Position numbers and translations under genes: made by a program
Assembly: GCF_000745345.1 (NCBI RefSeq)
Contig: NZ_JQNR01000003.1
Coordinates: forward strand, 1,178,001 to 1,242,000
DNA: 64,000 nucleotides
Reading direction: 5' to 3'
Origin: Actinacidiphila yeochonensis CN732
GTDB taxonomy: Bacteria; Actinomycetota; Actinomycetes; Streptomycetales; Streptomycetaceae
Shown here: in pieces, positions 45,018 to 61,935 of the stretch
Layout of the letters: each line of letters opens with the position of its first letter
How positions within the stretch are numbered: the first letter of the stretch is position 1
Notes under the pieces: model-generated
What the model saw: only the letters and a program-made list of their open reading frames with translations
What the model was told of the DNA's origin: nothing
Database searches by the model: none

Positions 45018-45400
45018 GCGGAAGCTCCGGGATTACGGGAACGGGGAGAACGGCCGCCAGTCGAGTGACCCGCCGTATTTCCATGGTGGCCGTCCGCCAC
45101 CACCGCCCCAAGACGTTCTGCGTCCCACCCTTCTGCCGGGCACAAGGCGACTCCACGCCTTTTCGTTTCTCGGGCCTCGGCGCTTTCCCGCGGGTCCCAC
45201 AGCCCCACCCAGCGCGAGGTTCCCTTGTCCCACAACCCGCTTTGGGACAAGTGCGAACCCCCAGGTCGGCACCCTGACCCCTCTTCAGCCTCTACGCGGA
45301 TCTCACTTTTCGCATCGCACCGGTCGCGCTGCGCCACTAGGCTCGAATGCCGCACCCTCTGTCCCTCACGCGGGACCGGCACACCAGGAGGTCCGCGCAC
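45018..45400. promoter_or_regulatory. Divergent control region of HATPase and DUF5753 genes, with operator-like dyad
   Basis: 383 nt. It includes a perfect 9-bp inverted repeat CTTGTCCCA/TGGGACAAG (45224-45232/45243-45251, 10-nt spacer), a good candidate for the XRE protein's operator, and TAGGCT (45338-45343) as a possible -10 for the plus-strand gene. The whole region is less GC-rich than average. Confidence 0.5.
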
Positions 45401-46249: not shown

Positions 46250-46446
46250 ACTCCGCCCGGTGGCGTAAGTCCAGCTACAGCAACGGTGAGCCCGGAGGGG
46301 CATGCGTCGAGGTTGCCGGTGGAGTCCCCGGGATCGTCCCTGTACGGGACAGCAAGGACCCGCATGGGCCCGTCCTCGCGTTCACCCCCACCGAGTGGAA
46401 CGCCTTCCTCAGCGCCGTGCGGAAGGGCGAACTCCCCACGGCCTGA
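46228..46446 (+). CDS. DUF397 protein, copy 1
   Basis: 72 residues. RWRKSSYSNGEPGGACVEVA, VPVRDSKDPHGPVLAFTPTE and WNAFLSAVRKGELPTA are the DUF397 hallmarks: a small beta protein with a conserved Cys/Glu. It overlaps the regulator gene by 22 nt in another frame, so it is translationally coupled. Partner of DUF5753 regulators. It differs from copies 2-4 in the N-terminal region (ATPELNSA instead of HSTHRFNDA). Confidence 0.9.
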   Translation: MRATPELNSARWRKSSYSNGEPGGACVEVAGGVPGIVPVRDSKDPHGPVLAFTPTEWNAFLSAVRKGELPTA

Positions 46447-46474
46447 ACCCTGCCATCCACCACTGGAGGACCCG

Positions 46475-46693
46475 ATGCACAGCACGCACAGGTTCAACGA
46501 TGCCCAGTGGCACAAGTCCAACTACAGCAACGGCCAGGCCGGCGGCGAGTGCATCGAGGTCGCCCTCCATACCCCCGGCACCGTGCCCGTACGGGACAGC
46601 AAGGACCCGCACGGGCCCGTCCTCGCGTTCACCCCCACCGAGTGGAACGCCTTCCTCAGCGCCGTGCGGAAGGGCGAACTCCCCACGAGCTGA
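46475..46693 (+). CDS. DUF397 protein, copy 2
   Basis: 72 residues starting MHSTHRFNDAQWHKSNYSNG, ending VRKGELPTS. The ribosome binding site CTGGAGGACCCG precedes the ATG. Very similar to copies 3 and 4 at DNA level, including the upstream leader. Copy 2 has HKSNYSN where copy 1 has RKSSYSN, and ECIEVALHTPG in place of ACVEVAGGVPG. Confidence 0.9.
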   Translation: MHSTHRFNDAQWHKSNYSNGQAGGECIEVALHTPGTVPVRDSKDPHGPVLAFTPTEWNAFLSAVRKGELPTS

Positions 46694-46722
46694 GCCCCTG
46701 CCATCCACCACTGGAGGACCCG

Positions 46723-46941
46723 ATGCACAGCACGCACAGGTTCAACGATGCCCAGTGGCGCAAATCCAGCTACAGCAACGGCAGTAGCAACGGTGCGTGC
46801 ATCGAGGTTGCCCTGCACACCCCCGGCACCGTGCCCGTACGGGACAGCAAGAACTCGCACGGGCCCGTGCTCGCGTTCACTCCCGCGGAGTGGAACGCCT
46901 TCCTCAGCGCCGTACGCGAAGGCGAACTCCCCACGGCCTGA
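46723..46941 (+). CDS. DUF397 protein, copy 3
   Basis: 72 residues: MHSTHRFNDAQWRKSSYSNG, SSNGACIEVALHTPGTVPVR, DSKNSHGPVLAFTPAEWNAF. It lies 248 nt from copy 2, with the same leader and ribosome binding site. The SNSSN-like loop and DSKNSH are copy-specific changes, so the copies are diverging while keeping the core. Confidence 0.9.
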   Translation: MHSTHRFNDAQWRKSSYSNGSSNGACIEVALHTPGTVPVRDSKNSHGPVLAFTPAEWNAFLSAVREGELPTA

Positions 46942-46970
46942 AACCCTGCCGTCCACCACTGGAGGACCCA

Positions 46971-47189
46971 ATGCTCAGCACGCACAGGTTCGAAGACGTT
47001 CAGTGGCACAAGTCCAGCTACAGCGACGGCATGCCGGGCGGCGCCTGCATCGAGGTCGCCCTGCACAACCCCGGCACCGTGCCCGTACGGGACAGCAAGG
47101 ACCCGCACGGGCCCGTGCTCGCGTTCACTCCTGCGGAGTGGAACGTCTTCCTCGGCGCCGTGCGGGAGGGCGAACTCCCCACGGCCTGA
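46971..47189 (+). CDS. DUF397 protein, copy 4
   Basis: 72 residues: MLSTHRFEDVQWHKSSYSDG, MPGGACIEVALHNPGTVPVR, EWNVFLGAVREGELPTA. It has the largest number of substitutions (LST, EDV, SDG, NVFLG). Same period (248 nt). It ends the array 60 nt before the DUF899 gene on the other strand. Confidence 0.9.
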   Translation: MLSTHRFEDVQWHKSSYSDGMPGGACIEVALHNPGTVPVRDSKDPHGPVLAFTPAEWNVFLGAVREGELPTA

Positions 47190-47249
47190 GACGTCCTGCC
47201 CGGTCGGCGGCGGGCTCCACCGGCCGGGCAGCGCCGCGAACGGCTGCCG

Positions 47250-47984
47250 CTACTCGAACTGCGGGATGGCCGCGCCCGCGTGCACCGCGCGGCCCTTGGG
47301 CTCCTCCCACTCCTCCTGGCGGCCCAGGGCGGTGAGGTCGAGGAAGCCGTACGTGCCGCCGAAGTCCGAGCCGCGGGCGTAGGTGGAGTAGGTGTGGAAG
47401 ACCTCGTCACCGTCGCGCAGGAAGCAGCTCAGCCCGGGCTGCTCCCCCGGCTTGTCGGCGATCCAGCCGAGGCCGGCTTCCTTCAGCTCCGGCAGCTCGC
47501 GGTAGTTGAAGTAGACCGGCTTGACGGAGGCGTCGATGGAGACGTTGAAGTCGTAGTTGAACTCGCTGCCGTAGGAGGAGAAACACGGCAGCGTCCAGCC
47601 GCGCTGCTCCACGTAGGCGGCGAACTTCGGGTAGGGCGCGCGGGCCACGAGGACGTACCGGGTGTCGCGGGACCCGAGGTGGTCCTGCAGCTTCTCGGCG
47701 AGCTGGTCGATACCGGCCGTGCAGCTCTTGCACGCCACGTCCCAGGACGGGTCGAACATGACGTGCTGCACGATGAGTTGCCGCTTCTCCTCGAACAGCT
47801 CCAGCAGGCCCACCGGGCCGTCCGCGCCCTCGAAGACGTAGGGCTTCTCCATCCGCACCATGGGCAGGCGGCGTCGTTGGGCGGCGAGGGCGTCCTGCGC
47901 CCGGCGTAGCTCCTTCTCCTTGGCGAGCAGCTCCTTGCGGGCCACCAGCCACTGCTCCTGGGAGACGATCTCGGGGAGGCTCAT
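47250..47984 (-). CDS. DUF899 thioredoxin-like protein
   Basis: 244 residues, DUF899 family. Thioredoxin-like core with VMFDPSWDVACKSCTAGIDQ (CKSC replaces the CxxC). Family landmarks: RRRLPMVRMEKPYVFEGADG, YPKFAAYVEQRGWTLPCFSS, YGSEFNYDFNVSID and the tail VFHTYSTYARGSDFGGTYGF, LDLTALGRQEEWEEPKGR. Probably a cytoplasmic redox or dithiol protein; its natural substrate is unknown. ATG at 47984. Confidence 0.9.
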   Translation of the reverse strand: MSLPEIVSQEQWLVARKELLAKEKELRRAQDALAAQRRRLPMVRMEKPYVFEGADGPVGLLELFEEKRQLIVQHVMFDPSWDVACKSCTAGIDQLAEKLQDHLGSRDTRYVLVARAPYPKFAAYVEQRGWTLPCFSSYGSEFNYDFNVSIDASVKPVYFNYRELPELKEAGLGWIADKPGEQPGLSCFLRDGDEVFHTYSTYARGSDFGGTYGFLDLTALGRQEEWEEPKGRAVHAGAAIPQFE

Positions 47985-48160
47985 GCTTGGGCTCCAGTCA
48001 GCGATGACGACACGTGAGCGCTTCGTAGCCTAGACGGCCCCGGGCCCCGGAGGCAGGGGGTACGAGCAGAGTGGGCACCGTCAGAGAAGGCCAGGAGTCC
48101 GCGGCGGACCGGCACGGGAGCGGTTGAGGCTTGCCCGGCCGGTCCGCCGTCTGCTCAGCT

Positions 48161-48190
48161 GATCAGCGGATCAGCGGATCAGCGGATCGG
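48161..48190. repeat. 8-nt tandem repeat, 3.7 copies
   Basis: GATCAGCG repeated three times (48161-48184) plus GATCGG. It lies in the gap between the DUF899 start and the ADH stop. Probably slippage. Confidence 0.7.
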
Positions 48191-48255
48191 AGACCCAGGG
48201 GATCACAGGCTCGGCAGCTCGGAGACTCGGACTGCGTGAGCCGTGGGAGCGGGGC

Positions 48256-49323
48256 TCAGGGGCGCAGGAGGACCTTGACGGCGCGGCGCTCGTCCATGGC
48301 CGCGTAGGCGGCGGCGGCCTCGGACAGGGGCATCTCGGCGGTGAAGACCAGGCCCGGCTTGATGGTGCCGTCCAGGACCTCGGGGAGCAGCTCCTCGATG
48401 TAGTCGCGCACCGTGGCGACTCCGCCGCGGACCCCGACGTTCGTGCCGAACATGGTGCCGACAGGGAGTTCCGGCCCGCCCGCGGGCACACCGACGAAGC
48501 CGACCTGGCCGCCGGGGCGCGCGGACCTGAGGGCCTGGTCCATGGACTCCTTGGTGCCCACGCACTCCAGGACGATGTCGGGGCCGACGCCGTCGAACAT
48601 CTCCTTGAGCTTCGCGATGCCCTCGTCGCCGCGTTCGGCGACGATGTCGGTGGCGCCGAAGGTGCGGGCGAGCTCCTGCCGGTCGGCGTGGCGGGACATG
48701 GCGACGATGCGGGTGGCGCCCAGGCGCTTGGCCGCGATGACCGCGCACAGGCCGACGGCGCCGTCACCGACGACGGCGACGGTGGAGCCCTCGCGCACAC
48801 CGGCGGAGAGCGCGGCGTGGTGGCCGGTGCCCATGACGTCGGACAGGGTGAGCAGGCCGGGTATGAGGTCGTCGGAGGGCTGGCCGCCGGGGACCGCGAA
48901 CAGGGTGCCGTCCGCGAGGGGCACGCGGACGCGGTCGCTCTGCGCGGCGTCGGACGGGCCCTCGCCGTCGATCGGGCGGCCCCAGAAGCCGCCGTTGAGG
49001 CAGTGCACGGTCCAGCCGTTGCGGCAGTTCACGCAGGTGCCGTCGCAGATGTAGAAGGGGGCGATGACGAAGTCCCCCACCTTGATCGTCTGGACGGCGC
49101 CGCCGACCTCCTCGACCACGCCGACGAACTCGTGCCCGATGCCGTGCGGCTCGTCGGTGGCCCGCACGCCCCGGTAGCCCCACAGGTCCGACCCGCAGAC
49201 GCAGGCGGCGACGACCCGCACCACGGCGTCCCGGCCGGTGGCCTCCGGCCCGCTGAGCAGTTCGGGGTCGGGGACTTCGGTGACGCGGACGTCGCGTTCA
49301 CCGTGGATGTAGACAGTGCGCAT
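48256..49323 (-). CDS. Zinc-dependent alcohol dehydrogenase (MDR family)
   Basis: 355 residues. Catalytic zinc ligands in CVCGSDLWGYRG and GHEFVGVVEEVGG (Cys, His, Glu), the structural four-Cys loop CDGTCVNCRNGWTVHC, and Rossmann motif VGDGAVGLCAVIAAKRLGA (GxGxxG). NAD(P)-linked oxidation or reduction of an alcohol/aldehyde; the substrate is unknown. ATG at 49323 with AGGAG. It is divergent from a TetR regulator 256 nt upstream; a 27-bp palindrome between them suggests control by that regulator. Confidence 0.92.
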   Translation of the reverse strand: MRTVYIHGERDVRVTEVPDPELLSGPEATGRDAVVRVVAACVCGSDLWGYRGVRATDEPHGIGHEFVGVVEEVGGAVQTIKVGDFVIAPFYICDGTCVNCRNGWTVHCLNGGFWGRPIDGEGPSDAAQSDRVRVPLADGTLFAVPGGQPSDDLIPGLLTLSDVMGTGHHAALSAGVREGSTVAVVGDGAVGLCAVIAAKRLGATRIVAMSRHADRQELARTFGATDIVAERGDEGIAKLKEMFDGVGPDIVLECVGTKESMDQALRSARPGGQVGFVGVPAGGPELPVGTMFGTNVGVRGGVATVRDYIEELLPEVLDGTIKPGLVFTAEMPLSEAAAAYAAMDERRAVKVLLRP

Positions 49324-49522
49324 GGTGGCTCCTGGGGCTGGTGCTGGTGCGTGGGCGCCGACGGGCGGGAGCGGTCGACCGCGGCTCACCGGGCACGCGT
49401 CACTGGTGTCCGGCGGGCAGCGTCGGGGCTTCCGGGCCGGCTGCGCGCCGGCTGCTCGGACGCCTCGCGCGAGGGCGGAGCGGTCCGTCCCGGCCGAAGG
49501 CCGCACGAAGAAACGTAACACC

Positions 49523-49549
49523 ACCGGAAAGCGGATTCCACTTTCCGGT
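49523..49549. promoter_or_regulatory. TetR-type operator palindrome
   Basis: Perfect 9-bp arms ACCGGAAAG (49523-49531) and CTTTCCGGT (49541-49549), 9-nt spacer. It is located 31-57 nt upstream of tetR and 200 nt upstream of ADH, overlapping the likely -35 of tetR. Confidence 0.7.
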
Positions 49550-49579
49550 TACGGCGGGGGCGACGGTACGCTTCCCCCC

Positions 49580-50164
49580 ATGGCCAGCGACACGCCGCGC
49601 GCCGGAACCCGCCCGCTGCGATCCGACGCGGCGCGCAACCGCGAACTGATCCTGCGGACCGCACGCGGGCTCTTCGCCGCCCACGGCACCGGAGTGGGCC
49701 TCAACGACATCGCCCGCGCGGCGGGCATCGGGGTCGGCACCGTCTACCGGCGCTTCCCCGACAAGGAAGCCATCCTGGACGCCCTGGTCGCCGCGAAACT
49801 GGCCGCCTTCGTCGGCCTCCTCCACGAAGCCGCCGAGGTCGCCGACCCGCGCGAGGCGCTGCGCGGCTACCTCTGGGCCATCCTGGAACTCCGCGTCCGG
49901 GACCGGGCCCTCCACGACGTCCTCGCCCGGGTCGAGTCCCACTCCGAGGAGGTCGAGCACCACAGCGCCCAGCTCAGGCGGGGCGCGGAAGCGCTCGTCA
50001 CGCGGGCACGCGAGGCCGGGGTGGTCCGGGCGGACTTCACCAGCGCGGACTTCCCGGTCCTCATGGAGATGATCGGCACCGTCACCGACCACACCCCGGC
50101 CGAGGACGGCGCCTGGCGCCGCTGGGCCGCACTCCTCGTCGACGCGGTCAGCCCGCCCGGTTAG
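49580..50164 (+). CDS. TetR-family transcriptional regulator
   Basis: 194 residues. HTH at about 15-60: ARNRELILRTARGLFAAHGT, then LNDIARAAGIGVGTVYRRFP, DKEAILDALV. The C-terminal ligand domain is helical. ATG at 49580 has no ribosome binding site, but TACGCT at 49567-49572 is 7 nt away, so a leaderless start is plausible. Probably controls itself and the ADH gene. Confidence 0.92.
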   Translation: MASDTPRAGTRPLRSDAARNRELILRTARGLFAAHGTGVGLNDIARAAGIGVGTVYRRFPDKEAILDALVAAKLAAFVGLLHEAAEVADPREALRGYLWAILELRVRDRALHDVLARVESHSEEVEHHSAQLRRGAEALVTRAREAGVVRADFTSADFPVLMEMIGTVTDHTPAEDGAWRRWAALLVDAVSPPG

Positions 50165-50240
50165 CGCCCTCCCCCGGCAGGGTTGCCGCCTCTCCCGGGC
50201 GGGGCACCGTCTCTCCCGGCGGGGTTCGCGCCGCACGGGG

Positions 50241-51026
50241 TCACAGGGCCGGGTGCTGGCCCCCGTCGCAGCGGACGGCCGTGCCGGTGATGTACGAGGC
50301 CCGCTCGCTGCCGAGGAAGGCGACGAGCGCGCCGAACTCGTCGGCGCCGCCGTAGCGCCCGGCCGGGATCGCGGCCTCGGCCGCGGCCCGGATCTCCCGC
50401 TCGGGGCGGCCGGTGCGCTCCGCCGCGTGCTGGTCGAGCCGCACGAGGCGGTCGGTGGCGATCCGGCCGGGGAGCGCGAGGTTGACGGTCACGCCGTCCG
50501 CGGCCACCTCCGTGGCGAGCGTCTTGAGGTAGCCGGCGAGGGCGGCGCGGCCGGCGTTGGAGGAGACCAGGCCAGGGATCGGCGCCACCACGCCGCCGGA
50601 GCCGATCGCCACGATCCGGCCCCAGCCGCGTTCGCGCATGCCGGGCAGCACCCGCCGGACCAGCGCGACGTGCGGGGCGACCAGCAGGTCCACGGCCGCC
50701 GCGACGCCCTCCGGGGTGAGGTCGGCGGCGGTGCCGGGGGTCGGGCCGGGGCCGTTGAGCACCAGGACGTCGATCGGGCCGAGCGCGCCGACCGTCTCGT
50801 CCACCAGCGCGTCCGGCGCGCCCGGGGCCGTCAGGTCGACGCCGAGGCCGACCGCCCGGCCGCCGCCGGCCGTGATCCGCGCGGCGATCTCCTCGGCGCG
50901 CTCCCGGCGGCGGCCGGTGACCGCCACGGCCGCGCCCTCCGCGCCCAGCGCCTCGGCCGCGGCCTGCCCCAACCCGCCGGTCGACGCGCACACCAGGGCC
51001 ACCCGGCCGCCCAGTCCCAGATCCAT
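50241..51026 (-). CDS. SDR-family protein lacking the canonical YxxxK
   Basis: 261 residues. The nucleotide-binding motif is CASTGGLG (residues 13-20), a weak form of TGxxxGxG. The catalytic Ser region is IGSGG. Where Tyr-x3-Lys is expected, LVSSNAGRAALAGYLKTLA shows Asn and Arg. This resembles the known FabG-like subgroup that lacks a perfect catalytic tetrad. ATG at 51026 with GGGAAGG. It may bind NAD(P) without classical activity or use other residues. Confidence 0.88.
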   Translation of the reverse strand: MDLGLGGRVALVCASTGGLGQAAAEALGAEGAAVAVTGRRRERAEEIAARITAGGGRAVGLGVDLTAPGAPDALVDETVGALGPIDVLVLNGPGPTPGTAADLTPEGVAAAVDLLVAPHVALVRRVLPGMRERGWGRIVAIGSGGVVAPIPGLVSSNAGRAALAGYLKTLATEVAADGVTVNLALPGRIATDRLVRLDQHAAERTGRPEREIRAAAEAAIPAGRYGGADEFGALVAFLGSERASYITGTAVRCDGGQHPAL

Positions 51027-51494
51027 GCCCACACCTTCCCGTCCCGAGGCGGCCAAACCGTCCCGCCGCGCCGCACGGTACGGCCCGCCGGGACGGCACG
51101 TCGCGGCACCGTAGCCGCGCGCCCCGCACCCTGCCGGCCACCGTATGCGGCGGGGAGCCCGGGGCCGGGAGGCGGGTCCGGCCTGGAAAGGGAGGCGGGT
51201 CCGGCCCCGGGGGTTCACGCGCGCCCGGGAGTCCACGTGGTCCACGACCACGGGCGGATCGGCGGGGGAAGGCGCGCGCCGCACCGAACGCCTCGGCCTC
51301 ACAACGGCGTTGACGAACCCGGTCGGGGGCTGCGGACTTGCCCGCGCGGCCTTCCGCGCGGGCACCGGCTCTGCCATAGTGCGGACGCCACCTCGGGGCA
51401 GCGATCACTTGGACAACGTTGTCGGCAGTCGGTACGCCGGCCGTGGTCAGCGTCGTCCATGACGTCAACGACTCAGTGAGGGAGTGCCGCAACG
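51027..51494. other. Intergenic region before the secreted glycosidase
   Basis: About 470 nt. No supported gene. It is the divergent promoter region of the SDR (minus) and glycosidase (plus). A GGCGGGTCCGGCC word is repeated near 51170-51205. A TTGGACAACGTTGTC dyad near 51408-51422 may be an operator. Confidence 0.45.
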
Positions 51495-53648
51495 ATGGGA
51501 CGGAAAGGCACGGGCTTGTTCGGACGCCGCGGACTGGCGTCCGCCGGAGCGATCGCCATGGCGGTCGCGGTGGGGCTGGCGGCCCCGTCGGCCTCCACGG
51601 CCGCCGACGCCGCGACGGGCACGGCGCAGGCGACGAGCACAGCGCAGGCGACGGCGGGCGGCGATCCGGTACTCGCCTTCGCGCACCAGAACAGCGACCT
51701 GCTGTACGGAACCGCGTACCGGGCGGCGGTGCGGAACCTGACGGAGACGAACACCGTTCCGTACGACCCGAACGTCTACGACACCAGCGGCCTGATGTCC
51801 GACCCGCCGGGTACGTTCATCAAGGCCGGCGGCGGCTACCCGCAGCCGTGGACCCGGGACGCCTCGCTCAACACCTGGAACGCGGCCAACCTCCTGGAGC
51901 CGGACGCGGCCCGCAACACGCTGTGGTCCGTGGTGGACAAGGACGCCGACGGCCAGTTGGTCGTCCAGCAGGACAACCAGCAGTGGGACCAGGTCATCTG
52001 GGTCACCGGTGCCTGGAACCACTACCTCGTCACCGGTGACCGCACGTTCCTCGGCGAGGCGTACCAGGCGTCCGTGAACACCCTGCACGCGCGGGAGACC
52101 GCCGCGAGCCGGGGCGCGGACTTCGGGTTCAACACCACGTACGGCCTGTTCGAGGGGCTGGGCTTCTTCAACGACGGCGTCGCCGGCTACCCGTCGCCCC
52201 CCGTCGAAGGCGACGACGCCCTGGGCGCGGGCGCCGGGTCGTACCCGGCCATCCGCTCAGCGATGATGCTGTCGACCAACGAGGTCTACTACGAGGCGTA
52301 CGTGGACGCCGCGGACATGGCGAAGTCGCTCCGGCGGCCCGCCGCCGAGGTGCGCGGCTACCAGGCCAAGGCGGCCGCCCTCAAGAAGGCCATCAACACG
52401 TACCTCTGGCTGCCCAAGGAGGGCAGGTACGGCTACTTCATCCACAACGGCGACGCGCTCCAGGGCCAGGTCGACGACCACGAGGAGGGCACCGGGCTGG
52501 CCTTCGCCCTGATGTTCGGCATCGCGAGCCCCCAGCAGGCGCGGGAGATCGTCGCCCACACGCACACGAGCACGTGGGGCATCACCGACACCTACCCGAC
52601 GGAGGCGCGCTACAGCGAGGCCGAGCCGGGCCGGCACAACGCAATGGTGTGGCCGATGGTGCAGGGCATGTGGGCCAGCGGACTGGCGGACGTCGGCGCC
52701 CAGGTCCCCTTCGCCCAGGAAGTCGGCCGGCTGGCCGAACTCGCCGACAACAGCAGCGGGTTCTACGAGATCTACAACGCCGACACCGGAGCGCAGTCCG
52801 GAGGCTGGCAGGCGGGCACCGCGTGGGGTTCCCAGCCCGACCAGACGTGGAGCGCCACGGCCTACCTGCGGATGATCTACGACGGCGTCTTCGGCCTGGA
52901 CTTCACCACCAGCGGGATCGGCTTCGCCCCGTCGCTGCCCGCCGGCTGGGGTGACGTCACCCTCAGCGGCATCTCCTACCGCCAGGCCGACCTCACCGTA
53001 CGGCTGCACGGCGCCGGGAACGTGGTCAGCGGGTTCACCGTGGACGGCCGCCGCACCGACCACCACAGCGTGCCCGCCGACCTCACCGGACGGCACACCG
53101 TCGACATCACCCTGACCGGCGCGCCGCGGGCCGACCGGGACGGCGACCACGTCCTCGACGCCGCGGACACCTGCCCCGACCAGCCCGGCACCGCTGCCCT
53201 GCACGGCTGCCCGGCACCCACCAGGCTCCAGGCCGAGGACGCGATCAACCGGGGCGGCACGAAGGTCTCCACGAACGACGTGATCTACGGCGCGGACGCC
53301 CACACCGGCTACGACGGGCGCGGATACGTCGACGGCATCTGGCAGCAGGGGGCCTCCAGCACCTTCCCGGTGCACCGGGCGAAGACCGGCGCGGCCACGT
53401 ACGACCTCACCATCCGCTACGCCAACGCCAGCGGGGACGGCCGCACCCTGAGCCTCTACGCCGACGGCGCCAAGGTCCGGCAGGTCCAGCTGCCGCCGGT
53501 CGGCACCGCCGGGGACTGGAACACCTGGGGGCAGACCACCGTCACGGGGCTGACCCTCAGCGGTGCCGAGCCCACCGTCACGCTGAAGTGGGACGCGGGT
53601 GACACCGGGCAGGTGAACCTCGACTGGGTCGGCCTGACGGCCGGGTGA
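51495..53648 (+). CDS. Secreted six-hairpin glycosidase with CBM35-like module
   Basis: 717 residues. A signal peptide with FGRRGLASAGAIAMAVAVGL, with a twin Arg, then AAPSASTAADA. A (a/a)6 hydrolase domain follows (PWTRDASLNTWNAANLLEPD; QWDQVIWVTGAWNHYLVTGD; EARYSEAEPGRHNAMVWPMV). Then a beta domain, a thrombospondin type-3 calcium motif (DRDGDHVLDAADTCPD), and a C-terminal CBM35-like domain (RLQAEDAINRGGTKVST; VNLDWVGLTAG). Likely an extracellular oligo- or polysaccharide hydrolase. ATG at 51495; GAGGGAG lies about 12 nt upstream. A strong terminator follows. Confidence 0.8.
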   Translation: MGRKGTGLFGRRGLASAGAIAMAVAVGLAAPSASTAADAATGTAQATSTAQATAGGDPVLAFAHQNSDLLYGTAYRAAVRNLTETNTVPYDPNVYDTSGLMSDPPGTFIKAGGGYPQPWTRDASLNTWNAANLLEPDAARNTLWSVVDKDADGQLVVQQDNQQWDQVIWVTGAWNHYLVTGDRTFLGEAYQASVNTLHARETAASRGADFGFNTTYGLFEGLGFFNDGVAGYPSPPVEGDDALGAGAGSYPAIRSAMMLSTNEVYYEAYVDAADMAKSLRRPAAEVRGYQAKAAALKKAINTYLWLPKEGRYGYFIHNGDALQGQVDDHEEGTGLAFALMFGIASPQQAREIVAHTHTSTWGITDTYPTEARYSEAEPGRHNAMVWPMVQGMWASGLADVGAQVPFAQEVGRLAELADNSSGFYEIYNADTGAQSGGWQAGTAWGSQPDQTWSATAYLRMIYDGVFGLDFTTSGIGFAPSLPAGWGDVTLSGISYRQADLTVRLHGAGNVVSGFTVDGRRTDHHSVPADLTGRHTVDITLTGAPRADRDGDHVLDAADTCPDQPGTAALHGCPAPTRLQAEDAINRGGTKVSTNDVIYGADAHTGYDGRGYVDGIWQQGASSTFPVHRAKTGAATYDLTIRYANASGDGRTLSLYADGAKVRQVQLPPVGTAGDWNTWGQTTVTGLTLSGAEPTVTLKWDAGDTGQVNLDWVGLTAG

Positions 53649-53666
53649 GCAGACGCGGGAAAGCAG

Positions 53667-53712
53667 AAGGCCGGGGCCGGGCATCCGCTGCGGGATGCCC
53701 GGCCCCGGCCTT
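53667..53712 (+). terminator. Perfect 20-bp terminator hairpin
   Basis: Arms AAGGCCGGGGCCGGGCATCC (53667-53686) and complement (53693-53712) with a 6-nt loop, 19 nt after the glycosidase stop. It probably works for the opposite amidase operon as well. Confidence 0.88.
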
Positions 53713-53787
53713 CGGCGGCGGCTCAGGAGCAGGGCGGCGTGAGGAGCAGCCGAGGGCTGCGCGGCCCGGGGCTCGGAGGCCAGGGGC

Positions 53788-54702
53788 TCAGAGGCCGGCG
53801 AGGAGCGAGCGGTCCAGGTGCGCGCTGACGACCCAGTTCGGGACGTCGACGATCTCGGAGATGACCAGGTCGCCCGCGATGCTGACGAGCAGGTACGCGT
53901 CGACGGGGTCGATGCCGGTACGGCGGGCCACCTCGTCGACGAGGTGGCGGGCGGCTTCCTTCGACGCGGCCATCAGGTCGGGGCCGATGCCGGTGGTGAC
54001 CAGGGCCGCGCCGGTGCGGCGGGAGGCCGGGGACGTCTCCAGGATCGGGGTGCGGGGGGCCGCGCCCTTCTCCAGGCCCACGCGCAGCCGGATGGTCGCC
54101 GAGGTCTCGACGCCGGTGCCGCAGACCTCGCCGTCGCCCATCGCCGCGTGCACGTCGCCGAGGGAGAGCAGCGCGCCGTCCACCCCGACCGGCAGCCGCA
54201 GCCGGGCACCGGGGCCGATCTGGCGGATGTCCATGTTGCCGCCCCAGCGGCGCGGCGGCACCACGGAGTGCTCGCCGGGCTCCGGCACGGCCGTCCCGAT
54301 GGTGCCGACCATGGGCAGCACCGGCACGGCGAGGCCGGGCAGCAGCTCGGCGCGGTCGCCGTTGATGGGGACGATCCGCAGGTGGGCGTCGGGGAAGTCG
54401 TCGGCGAGCAGTCCGAAGCCGGGGATGCAGGCGGTCCAGCCCCACTCGTCGACGGCGGCGTCGAGGATGTCGACGACCAGCGCGTCACCGGGCTCGGCGC
54501 CGTCCACCCGGATCGGGCCGGTCACCGGGTTGAGGCGGCCGAAGTCGAGGTTGGCGGCGTCGGCGGCCGTCGAGGTGCGGGAGAGCTGCCCGCCGCTGGA
54601 CTCCAGGGTCTCCACGGTCACCGTGTCGCCGGGGGCGACGGTGAGCACCGGCGGGATCGAGTTGTCCCAGACGTTGTGCGAGTCGGTGGCTTTCAGGTGC
54701 AT
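53788..54702 (-). CDS. Acetamidase/formamidase-family amidohydrolase
   Basis: 304 residues. Family marks: VAPGDTVTVETLESSGGQ, NPVTGPIRVDGAEPGDALVV, GGNMDIRQIGPGARLRLPVG, LLSLGDVHAAMGDGEVCGTG. Metal-assisted hydrolysis of short amides to acid plus ammonia is the family reaction. ATG at 54702 overlaps the TGA of the upstream permease by one base (TGATG), so the two are coupled. GGAG lies 8 nt upstream. Confidence 0.93.
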   Translation of the reverse strand: MHLKATDSHNVWDNSIPPVLTVAPGDTVTVETLESSGGQLSRTSTAADAANLDFGRLNPVTGPIRVDGAEPGDALVVDILDAAVDEWGWTACIPGFGLLADDFPDAHLRIVPINGDRAELLPGLAVPVLPMVGTIGTAVPEPGEHSVVPPRRWGGNMDIRQIGPGARLRLPVGVDGALLSLGDVHAAMGDGEVCGTGVETSATIRLRVGLEKGAAPRTPILETSPASRRTGAALVTTGIGPDLMAASKEAARHLVDEVARRTGIDPVDAYLLVSIAGDLVISEIVDVPNWVVSAHLDRSLLAGL

Positions 54703-56210
54703 CAGGTGTTCTCCAGTTCCAGGTTGGCGCCCCGTCCGCTGAGGCGGTAGTAGAGCAGCACGCAGCCGCCGACGGCGAGCCAGATGACGCCGCTGATCCG
54801 GGCGCGGTCGTCCATGTTCCACAGCACCGAGCCGATGATCACGAAGCCGATGAGCGGGGCCGCGATGTGGAGACCGTAACGGCGGCTGCGGTTGCGGAGC
54901 ACGAAGTGCGTGAAGACCGAGGCGTGCAGCAGCAGGAACGAGAACAGCGCGCCGAAGTTGACCAGCGACGACAGCAGGTCGACCTGGCCGACGAAACACA
55001 GGCCCAGCACCAGGGACACGACCGCCACGAACATGATGGCCCGCTGCGGCACCTTCCGCTTGGGGTGGACGTGGCCGAGGAACGCCGGCAGCTTGCGGTC
55101 GCGGGCCATGCTGTAGAGCAGGCGGGAGGTCGCGGCCTGTGCCACCAGCGAGTTGGCGACGCCGGTGGCCAGCGCGGAGGCGACGGCGATGGTGGTCTTG
55201 AGCCAGTGGCCGCCGGCGATGGCGGCGATGTCGTAGAAGGCGGAGTTGGTGGCGTCGTCGCCCTTGAACCCGGTCTTCCCCGGCACCAGCAGGGCGGCCA
55301 CGTAGGTCTGCACGACGAACAGCACCGCCACCGCGACCAGCGCGTACATCGTGGCCTTGCCGACCAGGCGCCGGTCGCCGCCCTCGACCTCCTCCGACAG
55401 CGTCGAGATGCCGTCGAAGCCGAGGAAGCTCAGCACCGCGATGGACAGCGCGCCGAAGATCAGCCCGGGGGTGACGAGCCCGTGGCGGTAGAACGGGTCG
55501 AGTGAGAAGTGCGCGCCGTTCTTGCCCGCGACGATCGCCGCCACGCCGAACCCGACGAACAGCGCCAGCACGACCAGTTCACCCAGCAGGAAGTACTTGT
55601 TGAGCCGGGCGGTGGACTCGATGCCGAAGAAGTTGACAACCGAGTTGACGACGACGAAGACCACGACCCACAGCCACTGCGGCACGCCGGGCACGAGCGA
55701 GGTGAGGGCGGCGGCGCTCATCACGTAGAGCAGGGTGGGGATGAGCAGGTAGTCCAGCAGGATGCCCCAGCCCGCGATGAAGCCCACCTTGTCGTTGATG
55801 CCGCGCCCGGCGTACGCGTAGACGGAGCCGGCGATCGGGAAGGCCCGGGACATCTCGCGGTAGCTGAGCGCGGTGAAGAACATCGCGACCAGGCCGATGA
55901 GGTAGGTCAGCGGGACCATGCCCTTCGACCCGTTGAAGACCACACCGAAGATGGCGAACGGTGCGATGGGCACCATGAACACCAACCCGTAGATGATCAG
56001 GTCGGACAGTCTCAACGACCGCTTGAGCTCCTGGCTGTACCCGAAGGAGGCCAGGTCCTGCTCTGTTCCCGAGCCCGCTCCACGGCCCGCGCCCGCGCCT
56101 GGGGCCGGGGCTGTGCCTGGGGCTGTGCCTGGGGCTGTGCCTGCGGACGGCGGCTTCGCGGACGGTTTCCCGGGCGGCCGGGACCCTGCCGGGTCGGTGG
56201 TGGACGTCAT
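54702..56210 (-). CDS. APC-family amino acid/amine permease
   Basis: 502 residues, about 12 TM helices. N-terminal Pro/Ala-rich leader with repeated APGT units, then LSDLIIYGLVFMVPIAPFAI (TM1 with the APC consensus GxVF), LTYLIGLVAMFFTALSYREM, LGFDGISTLSEEVEGGDRR (TM6-loop motif), SRLLYSMARDRKLPAFLGHV. A 12-nt DNA repeat (TGCCTGGGGCTG) encodes the APGT part. Imports an amino acid, amine or amide feeding the coupled amidase; the substrate is inferred. ATG 56210 with GGAGGG 11 nt upstream. Confidence 0.9.
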   Translation of the reverse strand: MTSTTDPAGSRPPGKPSAKPPSAGTAPGTAPGTAPAPGAGAGRGAGSGTEQDLASFGYSQELKRSLRLSDLIIYGLVFMVPIAPFAIFGVVFNGSKGMVPLTYLIGLVAMFFTALSYREMSRAFPIAGSVYAYAGRGINDKVGFIAGWGILLDYLLIPTLLYVMSAAALTSLVPGVPQWLWVVVFVVVNSVVNFFGIESTARLNKYFLLGELVVLALFVGFGVAAIVAGKNGAHFSLDPFYRHGLVTPGLIFGALSIAVLSFLGFDGISTLSEEVEGGDRRLVGKATMYALVAVAVLFVVQTYVAALLVPGKTGFKGDDATNSAFYDIAAIAGGHWLKTTIAVASALATGVANSLVAQAATSRLLYSMARDRKLPAFLGHVHPKRKVPQRAIMFVAVVSLVLGLCFVGQVDLLSSLVNFGALFSFLLLHASVFTHFVLRNRSRRYGLHIAAPLIGFVIIGSVLWNMDDRARISGVIWLAVGGCVLLYYRLSGRGANLELENT

Positions 56211-56703
56211 GGGTGCGTGGCCCTCCGCGGGAGTTCAGTGGGGACGGGGGGATTCGGAGGCGTGGGGAGTGCTCGGGTGCGTTCCGGTCGGTTCCCGTCG
56301 TTCGCGCTGTTCGATACGGCTCAGGCCGGGCTCGGCCGGACTCAGGCCGGACTCGGCCGGACTCGGTCGGCTCGGTGCGGCTTGCCCGGACGGCGACGGA
56401 GATCGGCGGACCCGGACGAAGGTCGGCGGACGGCGGACGGCGGACGGCGGACGGCGACGGAGATCGGCGGACGGCGACGGAGGTCCGGGGACCTCAGCGG
56501 AAGGCCGGTGAAGACCGTCGGCTCTCGACCGCCTACCCGTTCCGGCAGCCTGAACGGCGGCGCCGGAGGGGCAGGCGGTTCTCGCCCGGCGGCCGCCGGC
56601 GGCGCTGGCGTACGGCCGTGGTTTCGCCGCGGGGAACCCGGGCGGCGGCACATCACGCCTGGTCGGACCTAGGGTGTGGTGCGACGCTGTGCCGAGCAGC
56701 CTA
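56211..56703. other. Intergenic region, divergent amidase operon/GntR
   Basis: About 490 nt before an AT-rich dyad. It contains GGACTCAGGCC-like repeats near 56325-56365 and CGGCGGACGG tandem words (56400-56480). No gene. Confidence 0.5.
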
Positions 56704-56740
56704 GACAATAAAAGGTCTGATTACTAGACCTTTTATTGTC
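56704..56740. promoter_or_regulatory. AT-rich perfect dyad, operator or terminator
   Basis: GACAATAAAAGGTCT (56704-56718) and its exact complement (56726-56740) with spacer GATTACT. 15-bp perfect arms in a region of about 75% GC. The core GGTCTGATTACTAGACC could be a GntR-FCD operator, or it may act as a bidirectional terminator with A/T tails. Confidence 0.7.
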
Positions 56741-56878
56741 CGGCGCCCGAACGGCATCCTGCAGGAGTCCGGGCGGCACCCCGCCCGGAGCCCGAACGGC
56801 GCCCCGCCGGACGCCCGTCCAGACCCTGGCGGACACCCCGCCGAATCTTCCGCCGAACGTCCCGATGCGAAGGTGAAG

Positions 56879-57736
56879 ATGACCGACCTGCCAGACCCGC
56901 CCCTCGGCGGGCGGGCTTCCCTGGAGCCCTTGCACGCCGCCACGACCGGAGAGCAGGTGGCCCACCGGCTGGCCACCGCCGTCGCGCTGGGCGAGTACAG
57001 CCTCGGGGACCGCCTCCCCAGCGAACGGGAGCTGGCCGCGCTGCTGGGCGTCAGCCGGGAGAGCGTGCGGGTGGCGCTGCGCCGGCTGAGTGACGAGGGG
57101 CTGCTGGAGATCCGCCGCGGCCGGGCCGGCGGCGCGTTCGTCCGGGCCGAGTGGACACAGGCCAGCGCCCGCGCGGTCCAGCAGACGCTGCTCGACCGCT
57201 GGGAGGAGTTCGAGGCCCTCTTCGACTACCGCCGACTCGTCGAGGGCCTGATCGCCCGCACCGCGGCCGACCGGGCCGACGCCGCCGACCGGGCCGAACT
57301 GCGCCGCCTCCTCGCGGACTTCGACGAGGCCCCCTCCCCCAGCCGGGCCCGGGAGATCGACACCGAACTGCACCTGGCCGTCGCCCGTGCCGCCCACAAC
57401 CCGCGCCTGGTCGCCCTCCACCGGCGGCTGCTCTCCGAGGTCAGCCTCGGCGTCTCGATGGAGCCCTACACCTGGGACCTGTACGAGCGGTCCCGCCCGG
57501 GCCACCACCACCTCGTCGACGCGGTGTGCGGCGGCGACGGCGACGCCGCGGCGCGGATCGCGCACGAGCACTTCGGCATCACCGAGGACGTCCTCCGGCG
57601 CCTGGCCCACCGCGTCGAGCGGACGGTCGGCGCCGCGGCCTCGGGCGCCCCCGCCGACGTCCGCGTCGACCCCCGGGAGTCGGGAGCACGGGCGGAACGG
57701 GAGGTGCGCGGCATCGCCGAGGAGGCCGCGGGCTGA
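56879..57736 (+). CDS. GntR-family regulator, FCD (FadR) subfamily
   Basis: 285 residues. Winged HTH (EQVAHRLATAVALGEYSLGD, RLPSERELAALLGVSRESVR, RGRAGGAFVRAEW), then FCD domain helices with the metal ligands D...H (EIDTELHLAVARAAHNPRLV) and RPGHHHLVDAVCGGDGDAAA (H...H). ATG at 56879 is preferred over GTG 56873 because GAAGG is next to it. Divergent from the amidase/permease operon, which it probably controls via the dyad at 56704-56740. Confidence 0.9.
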   Translation: MTDLPDPPLGGRASLEPLHAATTGEQVAHRLATAVALGEYSLGDRLPSERELAALLGVSRESVRVALRRLSDEGLLEIRRGRAGGAFVRAEWTQASARAVQQTLLDRWEEFEALFDYRRLVEGLIARTAADRADAADRAELRRLLADFDEAPSPSRAREIDTELHLAVARAAHNPRLVALHRRLLSEVSLGVSMEPYTWDLYERSRPGHHHLVDAVCGGDGDAAARIAHEHFGITEDVLRRLAHRVERTVGAAASGAPADVRVDPRESGARAEREVRGIAEEAAG

Positions 57737-58340
57737 CCCTGCCCGCGGCTCGGGTGCCGTGCGAACGCGCCGGGCAGGATGGACGCCGCGCCGCCGCCAC
57801 CCACGCCGCCGCAACCGAAAGCCGGGCCAGGTCCCCGTCGGAACGGCGGGCGCCGGAGCGACCTGAGCCCGGGGAGCACCGGGTCACCGGGCCGCGGTCA
57901 CCGGTCAACGCCATCAGCCGGGCGGGCGCACCGGCGTCCGCGGCGGCGCCGATCCCCCGGGCCGCGCACCACCGGCCGGGGAAGCGGAGGCCACGGACCG
58001 GTGCCGCCCGAGGAGCCCGTCCGCGCGATCCGGCGCCCCGGGCGCGGGCATCGGGACGCTCCGCTTACCAAGTCTTTGCGATCCCCGGTCGCCGCCCACC
58101 CCGCCTCCCACCTGGGCCGCGCCCCCGGTCGTACCCGGACCGTCCCGACCGTCACACCACGTTCACCTCGCCGCTCTTTCCCGGCGTTCTACGCGCGTGG
58201 TGTCATGCCCACGCTCACCACGCACCACTCCCGTTCCGCCGTAAGCGCCCGTGGGTGCCCGCGAGTGCCCGCGAGTGCCCGCGAGCGTCCATGAAGGGCC
58301 CGTGAGCGCCACCGTCCGTCGACACCACCAGGAGCCACCC
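57737..58340. other. Intergenic region, no gene seen
   Basis: About 600 nt of high-GC non-coding sequence before the PLD-like gene. Open frames have no ribosome binding site and Pro/Arg/Gly shadow composition. There is a 3 x 10-nt repeat GTGCCCGCGA at 58255-58284. Confidence 0.55.
58255..58284. repeat. 3 x 10-nt tandem repeat
   Basis: GTGCCCGCGA repeated three times, about 57 nt before the PLD-like gene's ATG, in its leader or promoter. Confidence 0.7.
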
Positions 58341-59339
58341 ATGCTGTGGAAGGTCCTCACCCGCGCCGGTACCGCGCTCACCGCCGGAGCCGCCGCCGTC
58401 GCCCTCGCCACCGTCCCCGCGAGCGCCGCCGGTTACACGGCGTTCGCCTTCTCGCGGAGCGGCACCACGGAGCCCACGATCTACGACTTCGTCAACACGG
58501 CCACCAGCTCGCTCGACATGACGATGTACGAGCTGCAGGACACGACGGCGGTCAACGACCTCATAGCCCTGAAGAAGAAGGGCGTCACCGTCCGCGTCAT
58601 CCTGGACCGCCAGCACCAGAGCGAGAACAGCTCCGCGTACGCCTCCCTGACGGCGGCGGGCGTCGGCGTGGTGTGGTCGCCGTCGGCGTTCGTCTACACC
58701 CACCAGAAGACGATCACCGTGGACGGCACCACGTCCCTGATCCTCACCGGCAACCTGACCTCGCAGTACTACACCACCGGCCGCGACTACGGGGTGTTCG
58801 ACGACGACAGCCGCGATGTCGCGTCGATCGAGAAGGTGTTCAACGCCGACTACGCCGGAACCTCCGTCACCCCGACCGACGGCGACCACCTCCTGTGGTC
58901 CCCCACCGACTCCCGCAGCCGCCTGGTCTCACTGGTCGACGGGGCCACGAAGACGCTCGACGTGGAGGAGCTGGAGCTGAGCGACAGCACGGTCGTCAAC
59001 GCGATCGTGGCCCGGGCGAAGGCGGGCGTGGCCGTGCGCGTCGTCCTGGAGACGCCCTCGGACTACGCCGGCGAGGTCTCCTCGATCAAGGCGGCCGGCG
59101 GCAAGGTGGTGGGCTACTCCGACCCCGACGGCTTCTACATCCACGCGAAGGCGATGGTCGCGGACTACGGCCTCTCCACCCAGGCGGTCGAGGCCGGCTC
59201 CATGAACATCAGCAGCAACTCCCTCTCCAGCAACCGCGAACTGGGCCTGATCCTGACGGGCACAGGCGTCGCCCAGTCGGTCGCGACCACGATCGAGACC
59301 ACCTTCGCCACCGACTTCACCGGCGGCACCGCCGCCTGA
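58341..59339 (+). CDS. Secreted phospholipase D-like protein
   Basis: 332 residues. Sec signal peptide: MLWKVLTRAGTALTAGAAAV, cleaved near ASAA. Two PLD half-domains, each with an HKD-like motif: THQKTITVDGTTSLILTGN (H-x-K, D) and YIHAKAMVADYG followed by GSMNIS. An intact two-HKD phosphodiesterase/phospholipase or nuclease, extracellular. ATG 58341 with AGGAG at good spacing. Confidence 0.9.
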   Translation: MLWKVLTRAGTALTAGAAAVALATVPASAAGYTAFAFSRSGTTEPTIYDFVNTATSSLDMTMYELQDTTAVNDLIALKKKGVTVRVILDRQHQSENSSAYASLTAAGVGVVWSPSAFVYTHQKTITVDGTTSLILTGNLTSQYYTTGRDYGVFDDDSRDVASIEKVFNADYAGTSVTPTDGDHLLWSPTDSRSRLVSLVDGATKTLDVEELELSDSTVVNAIVARAKAGVAVRVVLETPSDYAGEVSSIKAAGGKVVGYSDPDGFYIHAKAMVADYGLSTQAVEAGSMNISSNSLSSNRELGLILTGTGVAQSVATTIETTFATDFTGGTAA

Positions 59340-59549
59340 CCCCTCCCCCGCCCGGGCCCACGCCTCCCCCCTCGGCACGATCCGGACGGCGCGGGCCCGC
59401 CGGGGCAGGAAGCACCCGCCCTGTCCCCGCCGCCCCGCTGCCCGAGCCCCGAGCCCCGAGCCCCGACCTGGAGCGCACCGCCGGCAAGGCGGCGCAACCA
59501 CACTCTCCGCTTGCCTGCGGCGGGCTCAGCCACCCGATAGGTTTGCCCC

Positions 59550-60770
59550 ATGCCCGGCCGCCTACTGGAGCTCCACGTCGAGAACTTCCGCAGCCTCCGC
59601 GACGTGACCATCCCGCTCGGCCCGCTCACCGTGCTGGTGGGTCCGAACGGAGTGGGGAAGTCCAACGTCCTGAAGGTCTTCGACTTCCTGGCAGCGATCA
59701 TCCAGACGGATCTCGAACCCGCGCTGGAGGACCGGGGCGGCTTCGACGAGGTGGCCTTCTGGGGCGGCGCCAAGCCCCCGACCTCCATGAAGATCCAGCT
59801 CAAGGCGACATGGACGACCCATGCCAGCCTGAGGGCACCGGACGAGTACGAGCTGACCATCCGCAGGCGCGCCCAGTCGACGAGGCGTACCTCCTACACC
59901 CTGTCGCGCGAGGAGAGTTTCCGGTTCAAACGCACCCAGGGGAGGGGGCGGCGTATCAAGATCTCGGGCGGCTCCGCCCGAGTGGTCGACGATCGGGCCG
60001 GACGTGAGTCCGAAAGCGGCAGCTTCGGCATCCAGCGGCTCAGCAGCGGCCTCTCCACCCTGCCGCGGTTGGGCCGCGCCGACGGCGGTGAGGAGGTCGC
60101 CCGCGTGGCCCAGCGGCTCTCCTCGTTCAGGGTCTTCGACGTGAACGTCACCGCCGCGCGGCAGCCGACCAGGCTCCGACCCAGCCTTGGCGGTCTGGCA
60201 CCGCACGCGGAGAACCTGGCCTCCATTCTCGTCCAATTGAGCGCCGACGAGGAGAGGTGGCGCCTCCTCACCGAGGACGCCCGCAGGATCCTGCCGCAGT
60301 TGGAGACCATCGAGTTCGAGCAGGTCGGCGGATACGCGGATCGTCTCGCCGTCGTGCTGCGTGAACGGGGGCTGCGCCGACCCACTCCGCTGGCGGATGC
60401 CTCGTTCGGCACCGTGCGCCTCCTGGGCCTGCTGGCCATGCTCTACGACCCCGATCCACCCGCGCTCACCTGCGTCGAGGAGATCGACCACGGCTTGCAC
60501 CCGCAAGCACTCGAACTCATCGTCGAGCGGCTTCGCGAAGCCTCGGAACGCACGCAGTTCATCGTGGCGACGCACTCGCCCGCCCTCGTCGACCGGCTGA
60601 ATCCCGACGAGTTCATCGTGTGTGACCGCCAACAGGACGGCGCATCCGTCATCCCGGCGCTTTCCGCGACGGAGATTGCGGAGATCGCCGAGGTGAGTGG
60701 CGATCAGCCGCTGGGAGAACTCTGGTTCTCCGGCGTGCTCGGCGGTGACCTGACCGAGGACGAGCTGTGA
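59550..60770 (+). CDS. AAA ATPase (ABC/OLD-like), defence-type candidate
   Basis: 406 residues. N-terminus ELHVENFRSLRDVTIPLGPL, Walker A GPNGVGKSN (31-39), ABC-type Walker B LTCVEEIDHGLHPQ, switch His ATHSPALVDRL, and a Q-loop-like region. This resembles AAA_21/RecF-like ATPases that pair with nucleases. The middle holds 200 variable residues. No TOPRIM in itself. The stop overlaps the start of the next gene (GTGA). Somewhat less GC-biased codons than neighbours. Confidence 0.85.
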   Translation: MPGRLLELHVENFRSLRDVTIPLGPLTVLVGPNGVGKSNVLKVFDFLAAIIQTDLEPALEDRGGFDEVAFWGGAKPPTSMKIQLKATWTTHASLRAPDEYELTIRRRAQSTRRTSYTLSREESFRFKRTQGRGRRIKISGGSARVVDDRAGRESESGSFGIQRLSSGLSTLPRLGRADGGEEVARVAQRLSSFRVFDVNVTAARQPTRLRPSLGGLAPHAENLASILVQLSADEERWRLLTEDARRILPQLETIEFEQVGGYADRLAVVLRERGLRRPTPLADASFGTVRLLGLLAMLYDPDPPALTCVEEIDHGLHPQALELIVERLREASERTQFIVATHSPALVDRLNPDEFIVCDRQQDGASVIPALSATEIAEIAEVSGDQPLGELWFSGVLGGDLTEDEL

Positions 60771-61435
60771 GCCGTCAGAGCGTCCACGCCTCCGGCAAGA
60801 GGATCGTCGTTCTCGCCGGTGAAAGCTCCAACGACCGCCGCATGCTGGCGGCCCTCATCAAGGCGAACCACCCGGCGCTCGCCGATACCGTCACCCTGAC
60901 CGAGATCACCGACCAGGTGCGGCTCAGGAAGAAGTCAGGCACCGACCTCTCCACAGCCGCGACCACGCTGGTGAAGAAGGCGTGCGGCAAGGCACGACAG
61001 AAGAACGGACTCTTCGTGGGCATCGCGGTCCATGAGGACATGGATGCCTCCCCCGGTCCGGCCTACGACCTCGCCCGCCGCACGGTCTCGGCGGCCCTGG
61101 CGAAGGCAGCCGGTACGAACTCGACCGCGTACGCTCTCGCGGCGGCGGAGTCCGAGGCATGGCTGCTGCTCTTCCCGGACGCCTTTCCCCTGGTGCACCG
61201 CTCCTGGTCCATCCCCGCGCAGTTGCGCGGAAAGGACACAGGCCGCCGCCGGACACCGAACGAGGACCTGATCGGCGCACTCAGCACACCCGGTTACCGT
61301 GAGAGCGACGGTCCCGTGATCCTCACCGAGGCCCTGAAGCGGGGAATGTTGACCCACCCCGAGGGCTCGAACCGGTCCTACTCGGAATTCCTCGCGGATT
61401 TGGCGAAGTGGCAGCCCGCAGCACCCCAGCGGTGA
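60767..61435 (+). CDS. TOPRIM-like (DUF4276-like) protein, partner of the AAA ATPase
   Basis: 222 residues. GKRIVVLAGESSNDRRMLAA has the conserved Glu of a TOPRIM first strand; FVGIAVHEDMDASPG supplies a D-x-D; further ELEAW-like AAAESEAWLLLFPDAF. This arrangement fits a metal-dependent TOPRIM/DUF4276-type nuclease. GTG at 60767 overlaps the ATPase stop by 4 nt. ATPase + TOPRIM two-gene systems (PARIS and Gabija-like) are known antiphage systems; this pair is not identical to either by eye. Confidence 0.7.
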   Translation: MSRQSVHASGKRIVVLAGESSNDRRMLAALIKANHPALADTVTLTEITDQVRLRKKSGTDLSTAATTLVKKACGKARQKNGLFVGIAVHEDMDASPGPAYDLARRTVSAALAKAAGTNSTAYALAAAESEAWLLLFPDAFPLVHRSWSIPAQLRGKDTGRRRTPNEDLIGALSTPGYRESDGPVILTEALKRGMLTHPEGSNRSYSEFLADLAKWQPAAPQR

Positions 61436-61491
61436 CACCCTGACCTCGCGCGGAACGGGCCCGCGCGATAGGAAGGCGGGCGCGGGAAAAG

Positions 61492-61543
61492 CAACGGGGC
61501 GAGGTGCGCCTGCGGTGAGTGGCAGGTGTACCTCGCCCCGTTG
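61492..61543 (-). terminator. tmRNA terminator
   Basis: 14-bp perfect arms (61492-61505 and 61530-61543; CAACGGGGCGAGGT and complement) with an inner CCTGC/GCAGG pairing. On the minus strand a CTTTTCCC tail follows. Ends 9 nt after the tmRNA 3' end. Confidence 0.9.
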
Positions 61544-61551
61544 GGGGAGTG

Positions 61552-61935
61552 TGGAGATGGCGGGAATCGAACCCGCGTCCTGTGGTGCGGAACCAGGGCT
61601 TCTCCGAGCGCAGTCCGCTGTGCTTTTCTCGGCCCCGGCAGTCACGCGGACAAGCCGCCGACGGGCCCAGCCACTGTTTGGTTTCCCGCTGTGTCCCGTG
61701 GCCGGGCGCAGCGGTTGAGTCCCCTAGATGATGCCAGGATCCGGGTCGGGAACAGCCCCGGGCTGACACTCCGCAGAGTCTTCGCTAGCTGCTAATTAGG
61801 CAGCGAGGGCGAAGGCGGAGGAATCGCGCTTGGAATTGGCGATTATTGGTTTCGGCATATGGTTAACGAGATCATTGCCGCTTTCTCGGCTCGCTTCCCC
61901 TGCTTCGACATCCCCAGTCGAAACCGATCATCCCC
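61552..61935 (-). ncRNA. ssrA: tmRNA (SsrA), 384 nt
   Basis: 5' GGGGATGATCGGTTTCGAC and 3' GGGTTCGATTCCCGCCATCT, then CCA. The ends pair as in the tRNA-Ala-like domain (GGGGATG with CATCTCC); the T arm GGGTTCGATTCCC is canonical. CCA is not encoded after the discriminator A (ACAC follows). The tag frame at 61840-61796 reads ANSKRDSSAFALAA then TAA. It is next to smpB as usual. Small proteins called over it (e.g. MAGIEPASC...) are artefacts. Confidence 0.95.
61796..61840 (-). other. tmRNA tag-peptide frame
   Basis: GCC AAT TCC AAG CGC ... GCC TAA encodes the degradation tag ANSKRDSSAFALAA with the ALAA end required by ClpXP-type proteases. It is two residues shorter than the tag I recall for S. 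coelicolor, which has QQ before AFALAA. Confidence 0.85.

Follow-up and report, generated by a model that had tools for sequence, protein, structure and literature searches.

The gene pair and its surroundings

The stretch of DNA analysed here (64,000 nucleotides; hereafter the window) belongs to a GC-rich chromosome from the Streptomyces family. It contains two coupled genes, designated A and B, which lie between a PLD-like gene and the gene for tmRNA, and the following features were identified at this site.

59538–59543, plus strand: TAGGTT, a conserved −10-like element of a predicted leaderless promoter, 6 nt before the start of A and conserved upstream of homologues
59550–60770, plus strand: gene A, an AAA_21/OLD-type ABC ATPase of 406 amino acids (HEC-01A; AAA_21 E 9e-39, HEC-01A model 680 bits)
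60767–60770, plus strand: GTGA, the start/stop overlap by which B is coupled to A, read from the sequence and kept in nearly all homologues
60767–61435, plus strand: gene B, a putative nuclease of 222 amino acids, remotely DUF4276/TOPRIM-like (HEC-01B; HEC-01B model E 7e-82, hhalign to a DUF4276 set, AF2 model)
61492–61543, minus strand: 22-bp hairpin between B and tmRNA, the tmRNA terminator with its T-run on the minus strand (inverted repeat; RNA fold z −5.9 for 61436–61551)
61551–61935, minus strand: tmRNA gene, a neighbour outside the system (ARAGORN; Rfam RF00023, 162.5 bits)

Both reading frames and their GTGA overlap lie exactly where the original prediction had placed them, and so does the tmRNA gene beside the pair, the 3' end of which faces the pair 116 bases beyond B. 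The 4-bp overlap is retained in nearly all homologous pairs read, which excludes a chance arrangement of open reading frames. At third codon positions the pair is slightly AT-richer than the other genes of the window (GC3 0.87 for A and 0.86 for B, against a median of 0.957), A ranking seventh lowest and B sixth lowest among the 46 genes that a GC3 heuristic called; the pair had been described as codon-distinct from its neighbours, which holds in direction but is moderate in degree.

The exact hexamer TAGGTT occurs in 22 of the 24 upstream regions of A that were compared, and the other two carry one-base variants. In all 24 regions the TAGGTT-like hexamer is situated 4–7 nt from the start ATG of A, mostly with CCGA in front, while neither a conserved −35 element nor a Shine-Dalgarno sequence was found in them, and nothing else is strongly conserved further upstream. 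TAG-type −10 boxes and leaderless mRNAs are common in Streptomyces. A hexamer so close to the start and lacking a Shine-Dalgarno sequence fits a leaderless transcript, with the promoter travelling together with the cassette.

The approximately 17.5 kb adjoining the tmRNA gene (44058–61551) sits between two blocks shared with congeners and encodes a GntR regulator, a permease, an amidase, dehydrogenases and, at 58341–59336, a PLD-like protein that is probably secreted and has two regions with PLD motifs. In one congener (L084) about 0.3 kb separates the tmRNA from the second shared block. Relatives of the PLD-like protein in 11 congeners sit elsewhere, about 180–200 kb from the tmRNA where this is measurable. 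Its assignment as DrmC of DISARM was rejected, as its score of 53.9 bits falls short of the cut-off of 133, its N-terminus is hydrophobic and signal-like, and no further DISARM gene was seen. No further defence genes were found among the neighbours tested. Elsewhere the window encodes, in a dip of low GC (32481–34400), a possible polymorphic toxin of 640 aa carrying a PT-HINT (pretoxin Hint) domain and, at 45347–47189, a DUF5753 regulator with similar stretches in tandem behind it that resemble DUF397 genes.

The two proteins

Protein A is an intact AAA ATPase, as had been claimed. Its best Pfam model is AAA_21, which carries the label 'putative AbiEii toxin, Type IV TA system', followed more weakly by AAA_15 and SMC_N. 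The PADLOC model HEC-01A (PDLC04183) matches residues 1–401 over positions 1–402 of its 402 (E 2.2e-205). Sequence comparison was extended to 25 pairs reaching from streptomycetes to proteobacterial prophages, in which the Walker A motif (G31–K37), the signature (S285–G287) and the Walker B residues (E310/E311) are invariant or nearly so; the same applies to the switch histidine H342 and the C-terminal ELWFSG, distant relatives included. The chain stops after the ATPase domain and contains no fused TOPRIM.

Searches of Pfam and NCBIfam with protein B yielded no significant family match, and the PADLOC model HEC-01B (PDLC04207) matches it over positions 1–201 of 203 (E 6.7e-82, 272 bits), as it does all 18 of the B homologues searched. 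DUF4276 (PF14103) is weakly matched by 3 of these 18, below the Pfam cut-off (best E 0.0037), and not by B of the window. As aligned by hhalign with a set of true DUF4276 proteins, the B profile reaches a probability of 92.1% (E 6.3e-7) over 189 columns, that is, over its whole length, while a decoy from an alpha/beta family (lumazine-synthase) reaches 1.0%. At the profile level, B is thus predicted to be a remote DUF4276 relative; the DUF4276-like character first attributed to it stands in this sense, but not as a Pfam match of the window protein. In a congener (locus L043, 311–2076), a true DUF4276 gene directly follows a gene for an AAA_21-like ATPase and overlaps it by 4 bp, an arrangement hinting at a wider theme of an ATPase plus DUF4276.

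Seven residues of B (E19, H89, D91, D93, E128, E130 and W132) are invariant in 25 of 25 pairs, and among them are the two features below, which correspond to the acidic 'E...DxD' pattern of the original prediction.

60821–60823, plus strand: codon of E19, the predicted TOPRIM glutamate, right after strand beta1 (invariant in 25 pairs; model strand 11–17)
61037–61045, plus strand: codons of D91-M-D93, the predicted TOPRIM DxD, closing strand beta3 (both aspartates unchanged in all 25 pairs; model strand 81–91)

The TOPRIM layout has a glutamate after the first strand and DxD after the third, and in the structural model of B residues E19 and D91/D93 are placed where the TOPRIM catalytic residues belong. 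This AF2 model, built from 17 sequences, has a pLDDT of 89.7 and a pTM of 0.85; a first model from 14 close sequences was too poor (pLDDT 69), the rise from 69 to 90 being due to the addition of three distant prophage homologues. In fold comparison the TOPRIM region of the OLD protein 6nk8 gave one of the longest alignments (Z 7.7, rmsd 4.5, 169 residues), followed by those of 6njx (Z 6.6, 163 residues) and 6p74 (Z 5.8, 144 residues). Unrelated alpha/beta folds tie with them in Z, values of about 7 being common, but over fewer residues, mostly 100–138. PH0156 (2p62) was aligned over 173 residues (Z 7.2); we take it to be a member of DUF3226, a TOPRIM-like family. DUF3226 itself had no match in the 149 genomes searched. 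Foldseek with the B model against the PDB and viral models returned no significant match, nor did sequence searches against solved structures, run with B itself or with its profile, yield anything useful. These fold searches are at most supportive of the TOPRIM reading. The layout of E19 and D91/D93 agrees with a TOPRIM domain. The direct hhalign comparison of B with OLD TOPRIM gives a weak match (5%).

Comparison with known systems

Matching the HEC-01A and HEC-01B models almost from end to end and encoded side by side, proteins A and B belong to HEC-01, a candidate anti-phage system already catalogued. HEC-01 is a 'Hma-embedded candidate' of PADLOC, attributed to the Payne et al. 2024 preprint as that work is cited in PMC12988326. 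On HEC-01 itself nothing was found in the literature beyond a citation of this preprint, and no phage or nuclease experiment on the pair was found there. The pair described here stands alone, outside any Hma system, and has otherwise no known difference from HEC-01.

PARIS (AriA/AriB, class 4 OLD) shares with the pair a layout in which adjacent genes encode an ABC ATPase and a separate TOPRIM protein, TOPRIM-like by prediction in the case of B. AriA keeps AriB sequestered; a phage trigger then releases AriB, which cuts tRNA (PMC12409363). The AriA model of PADLOC also scores on A, at 124 bits, but A is nearer to HEC-01A (680 bits). B is DUF4276-like and has no match to DUF4435, the AriB-type Pfam family, in any of 18 B proteins at E ≤ 10, and the AriB model is absent from its PADLOC matches.

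In GajA of Gabija and other OLD nucleases, the ATPase and TOPRIM reside in one chain, and Gabija requires the helicase GajB (PMC10568477). They share the logic of an ABC ATPase plus TOPRIM with the pair, and OLD TOPRIM regions cover most of the B model; here, by difference, A carries no fused TOPRIM and no UvrD-like GajB gene lies next door, the neighbours being B and tmRNA on one side and the PLD-like gene on the other. Membership of the pair in PARIS or Gabija was rejected on these grounds (no DUF4435 match, no fused TOPRIM, no adjoining GajB). What survives of the 'PARIS/Gabija logic' originally invoked is a fair analogy, that of an ATPase with a TOPRIM-like partner.

Three other ATPases are of interest here. 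The related HEC-04 (IbfA) combines an ABC ATPase with a TOPRIM, as predicted for the pair, but as a single fused protein, which reportedly protects E. coli against T4 and T5 (PMC12111858). Mad3 of MADS is an AAA ATPase of a type related to A, from which A differs by a score far under the family cut-off (111.9 bits with NF047739, whose cut-off is 420; the PADLOC mad3 model gives 98.5 bits), and no MADS gene set was recognised here. Cran1, an archaeal ATPase-nuclease of the OLD family, has a role in the cell cycle and not in defence (PMC12796447).

Distribution, proposed function and alternatives

A check of presence and absence among strains had been suggested; across related genomes the distribution is patchy: B is present in 4 of 35 congeneric genomes (that of the window counted) and 29 of 395 genomes of the family, and it is rare in the phylum (2 of 296 genomes). 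The closest relatives of the window's B are found in other genera (61–71%, against 44–50% within its own genus), a pattern suggestive of horizontal transfer or of differential loss long ago. The sites vary as well. In three Streptomyces loci (L030, L040 and L042) the pair comes after a gene that resembles cbiD of the cobalamin cluster. At L030 the two flanking genes are about 2.2 kb apart, whereas in genomes without the pair at this position 54 to 419 bases separate the same two genes, so the inserted unit consists of the gene pair and nothing else.

Three viral contigs hold the pair, at positions usual for prophage cargo, with A proteins 46–49% identical. On a prophage contig (L099, 1–3682) the pair has a tyrosine integrase gene on one side and, on the other, a 291-bp stretch that repeats the 3' end of this integrase gene with 79% identity, which suggests a gain of cargo with duplication; on the second contig it adjoins an S24 repressor, and on the third it is near a phage lysozyme gene. 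No match to B was found in the plasmid-record collection at E ≤ 1e-5, nor in the phage-record collection. The trees of A and B are correlated (mirror-tree r 0.88), a value that partly reflects shared ancestry and is not taken as proof of contact between A and B.

The HEC-01 matches, the DUF4276 relation, the acidic triad, the patchy distribution and the prophage-cargo relatives together support well the original proposal of an ATPase/TOPRIM-like antiphage candidate. We consider it probable (roughly two chances in three) that the pair is a two-gene conflict cassette of HEC-01 type for phage defence, with A as sensor and gate and B as nuclease effector. By analogy with the behaviour of AriA and AriB, where the ATPase restrains its partner, the mode of action would most likely be PARIS-like. 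Protein A, an OLD/SMC-like ABC ATPase, would sense infection and keep inactive protein B, a putative metal-dependent nuclease of DUF4276-like TOPRIM type made in coupled stoichiometry with A; a signal of infection, working on A through ATP binding or hydrolysis, would free or activate B; and the active B would cut nucleic acid, be it host tRNA, other RNA or DNA, so that phage growth would be stopped, probably through a halt of the cell. A leaderless promoter of its own would drive low, constitutive expression of the cassette, which may spread as a unit of roughly 1.9 kb.

Much of this evidence is shared by a selfish module of toxin-antitoxin type, in which A would neutralise B, the pair would be kept through addiction or through a stabilising effect on mobile DNA, and defence would be a side effect. 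It too would be a coupled two-gene cassette, patchy, inserted at many sites and carried on prophages, and the best Pfam model of A bears the Type IV TA name given above, which is a family label. The gene order and the large ATPase differ from ordinary small toxin-antitoxin pairs, both proteins match candidate-defence models, and B is absent from the plasmid records; we regard this explanation as unlikely. More improbable still is a housekeeping pair for DNA repair or chromosome maintenance, of SMC/RecF/OLD type and with no anti-phage role, which the SMC_N and AAA_15 scores of A and the cell-cycle function of Cran1 would fit, but from which the occurrence in so few congeners and family genomes, the unrelated sites, the carriage on prophages and the GC3 below that of the neighbours set the pair apart.

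The proposal that tmRNA, as an island insertion site, had received the pair as cargo of an integrative island attached at its 3' end is very improbable: DNA similarity to all eight congeners examined does end either right at the tmRNA 3' end or no more than about 40 bases from it, and the next core block follows only about 17.5 kb further on, but no integrase was recognised among the neighbours, the 22-bp tmRNA 3' end is present in a single copy within the window with no att repeat, the terminator hairpin is intact, the intervening 17.5 kb carries metabolic genes, no other pair locus examined has a tmRNA (many of these loci reaching only 1.5 kb past B), and the pairs of three congeners are hundreds of kilobases or more from their tmRNA. 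Similarity is lost at the tmRNA end because every congener carries a hairpin of its own immediately behind the gene, and the adjacency of pair and tmRNA looks incidental.

For the HEC-01-type defence cassette, a more speculative extension, which we consider doubtful, is that the HEC-01 pairs whose effector is DUF4276-like make up one more class of split OLD/TOPRIM systems next to PARIS, with additional conserved residues of their own (H89, E128, E130 and W132) and possibly a substrate other than the tRNAs that AriB cuts, moving from one chromosomal site to another as a bare 1.9-kb cassette with a leaderless promoter and without a recombinase of its own. For HEC-01, which has been catalogued but opaque, the analysis offers a concrete hypothesis in streptomycetes as to which protein may be the nuclease, which residues may be essential and where the promoter may lie. 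If true, it would add a split ATPase/TOPRIM system beside PARIS and would give a testable function to DUF4276-type proteins paired with AAA_21 ATPases.
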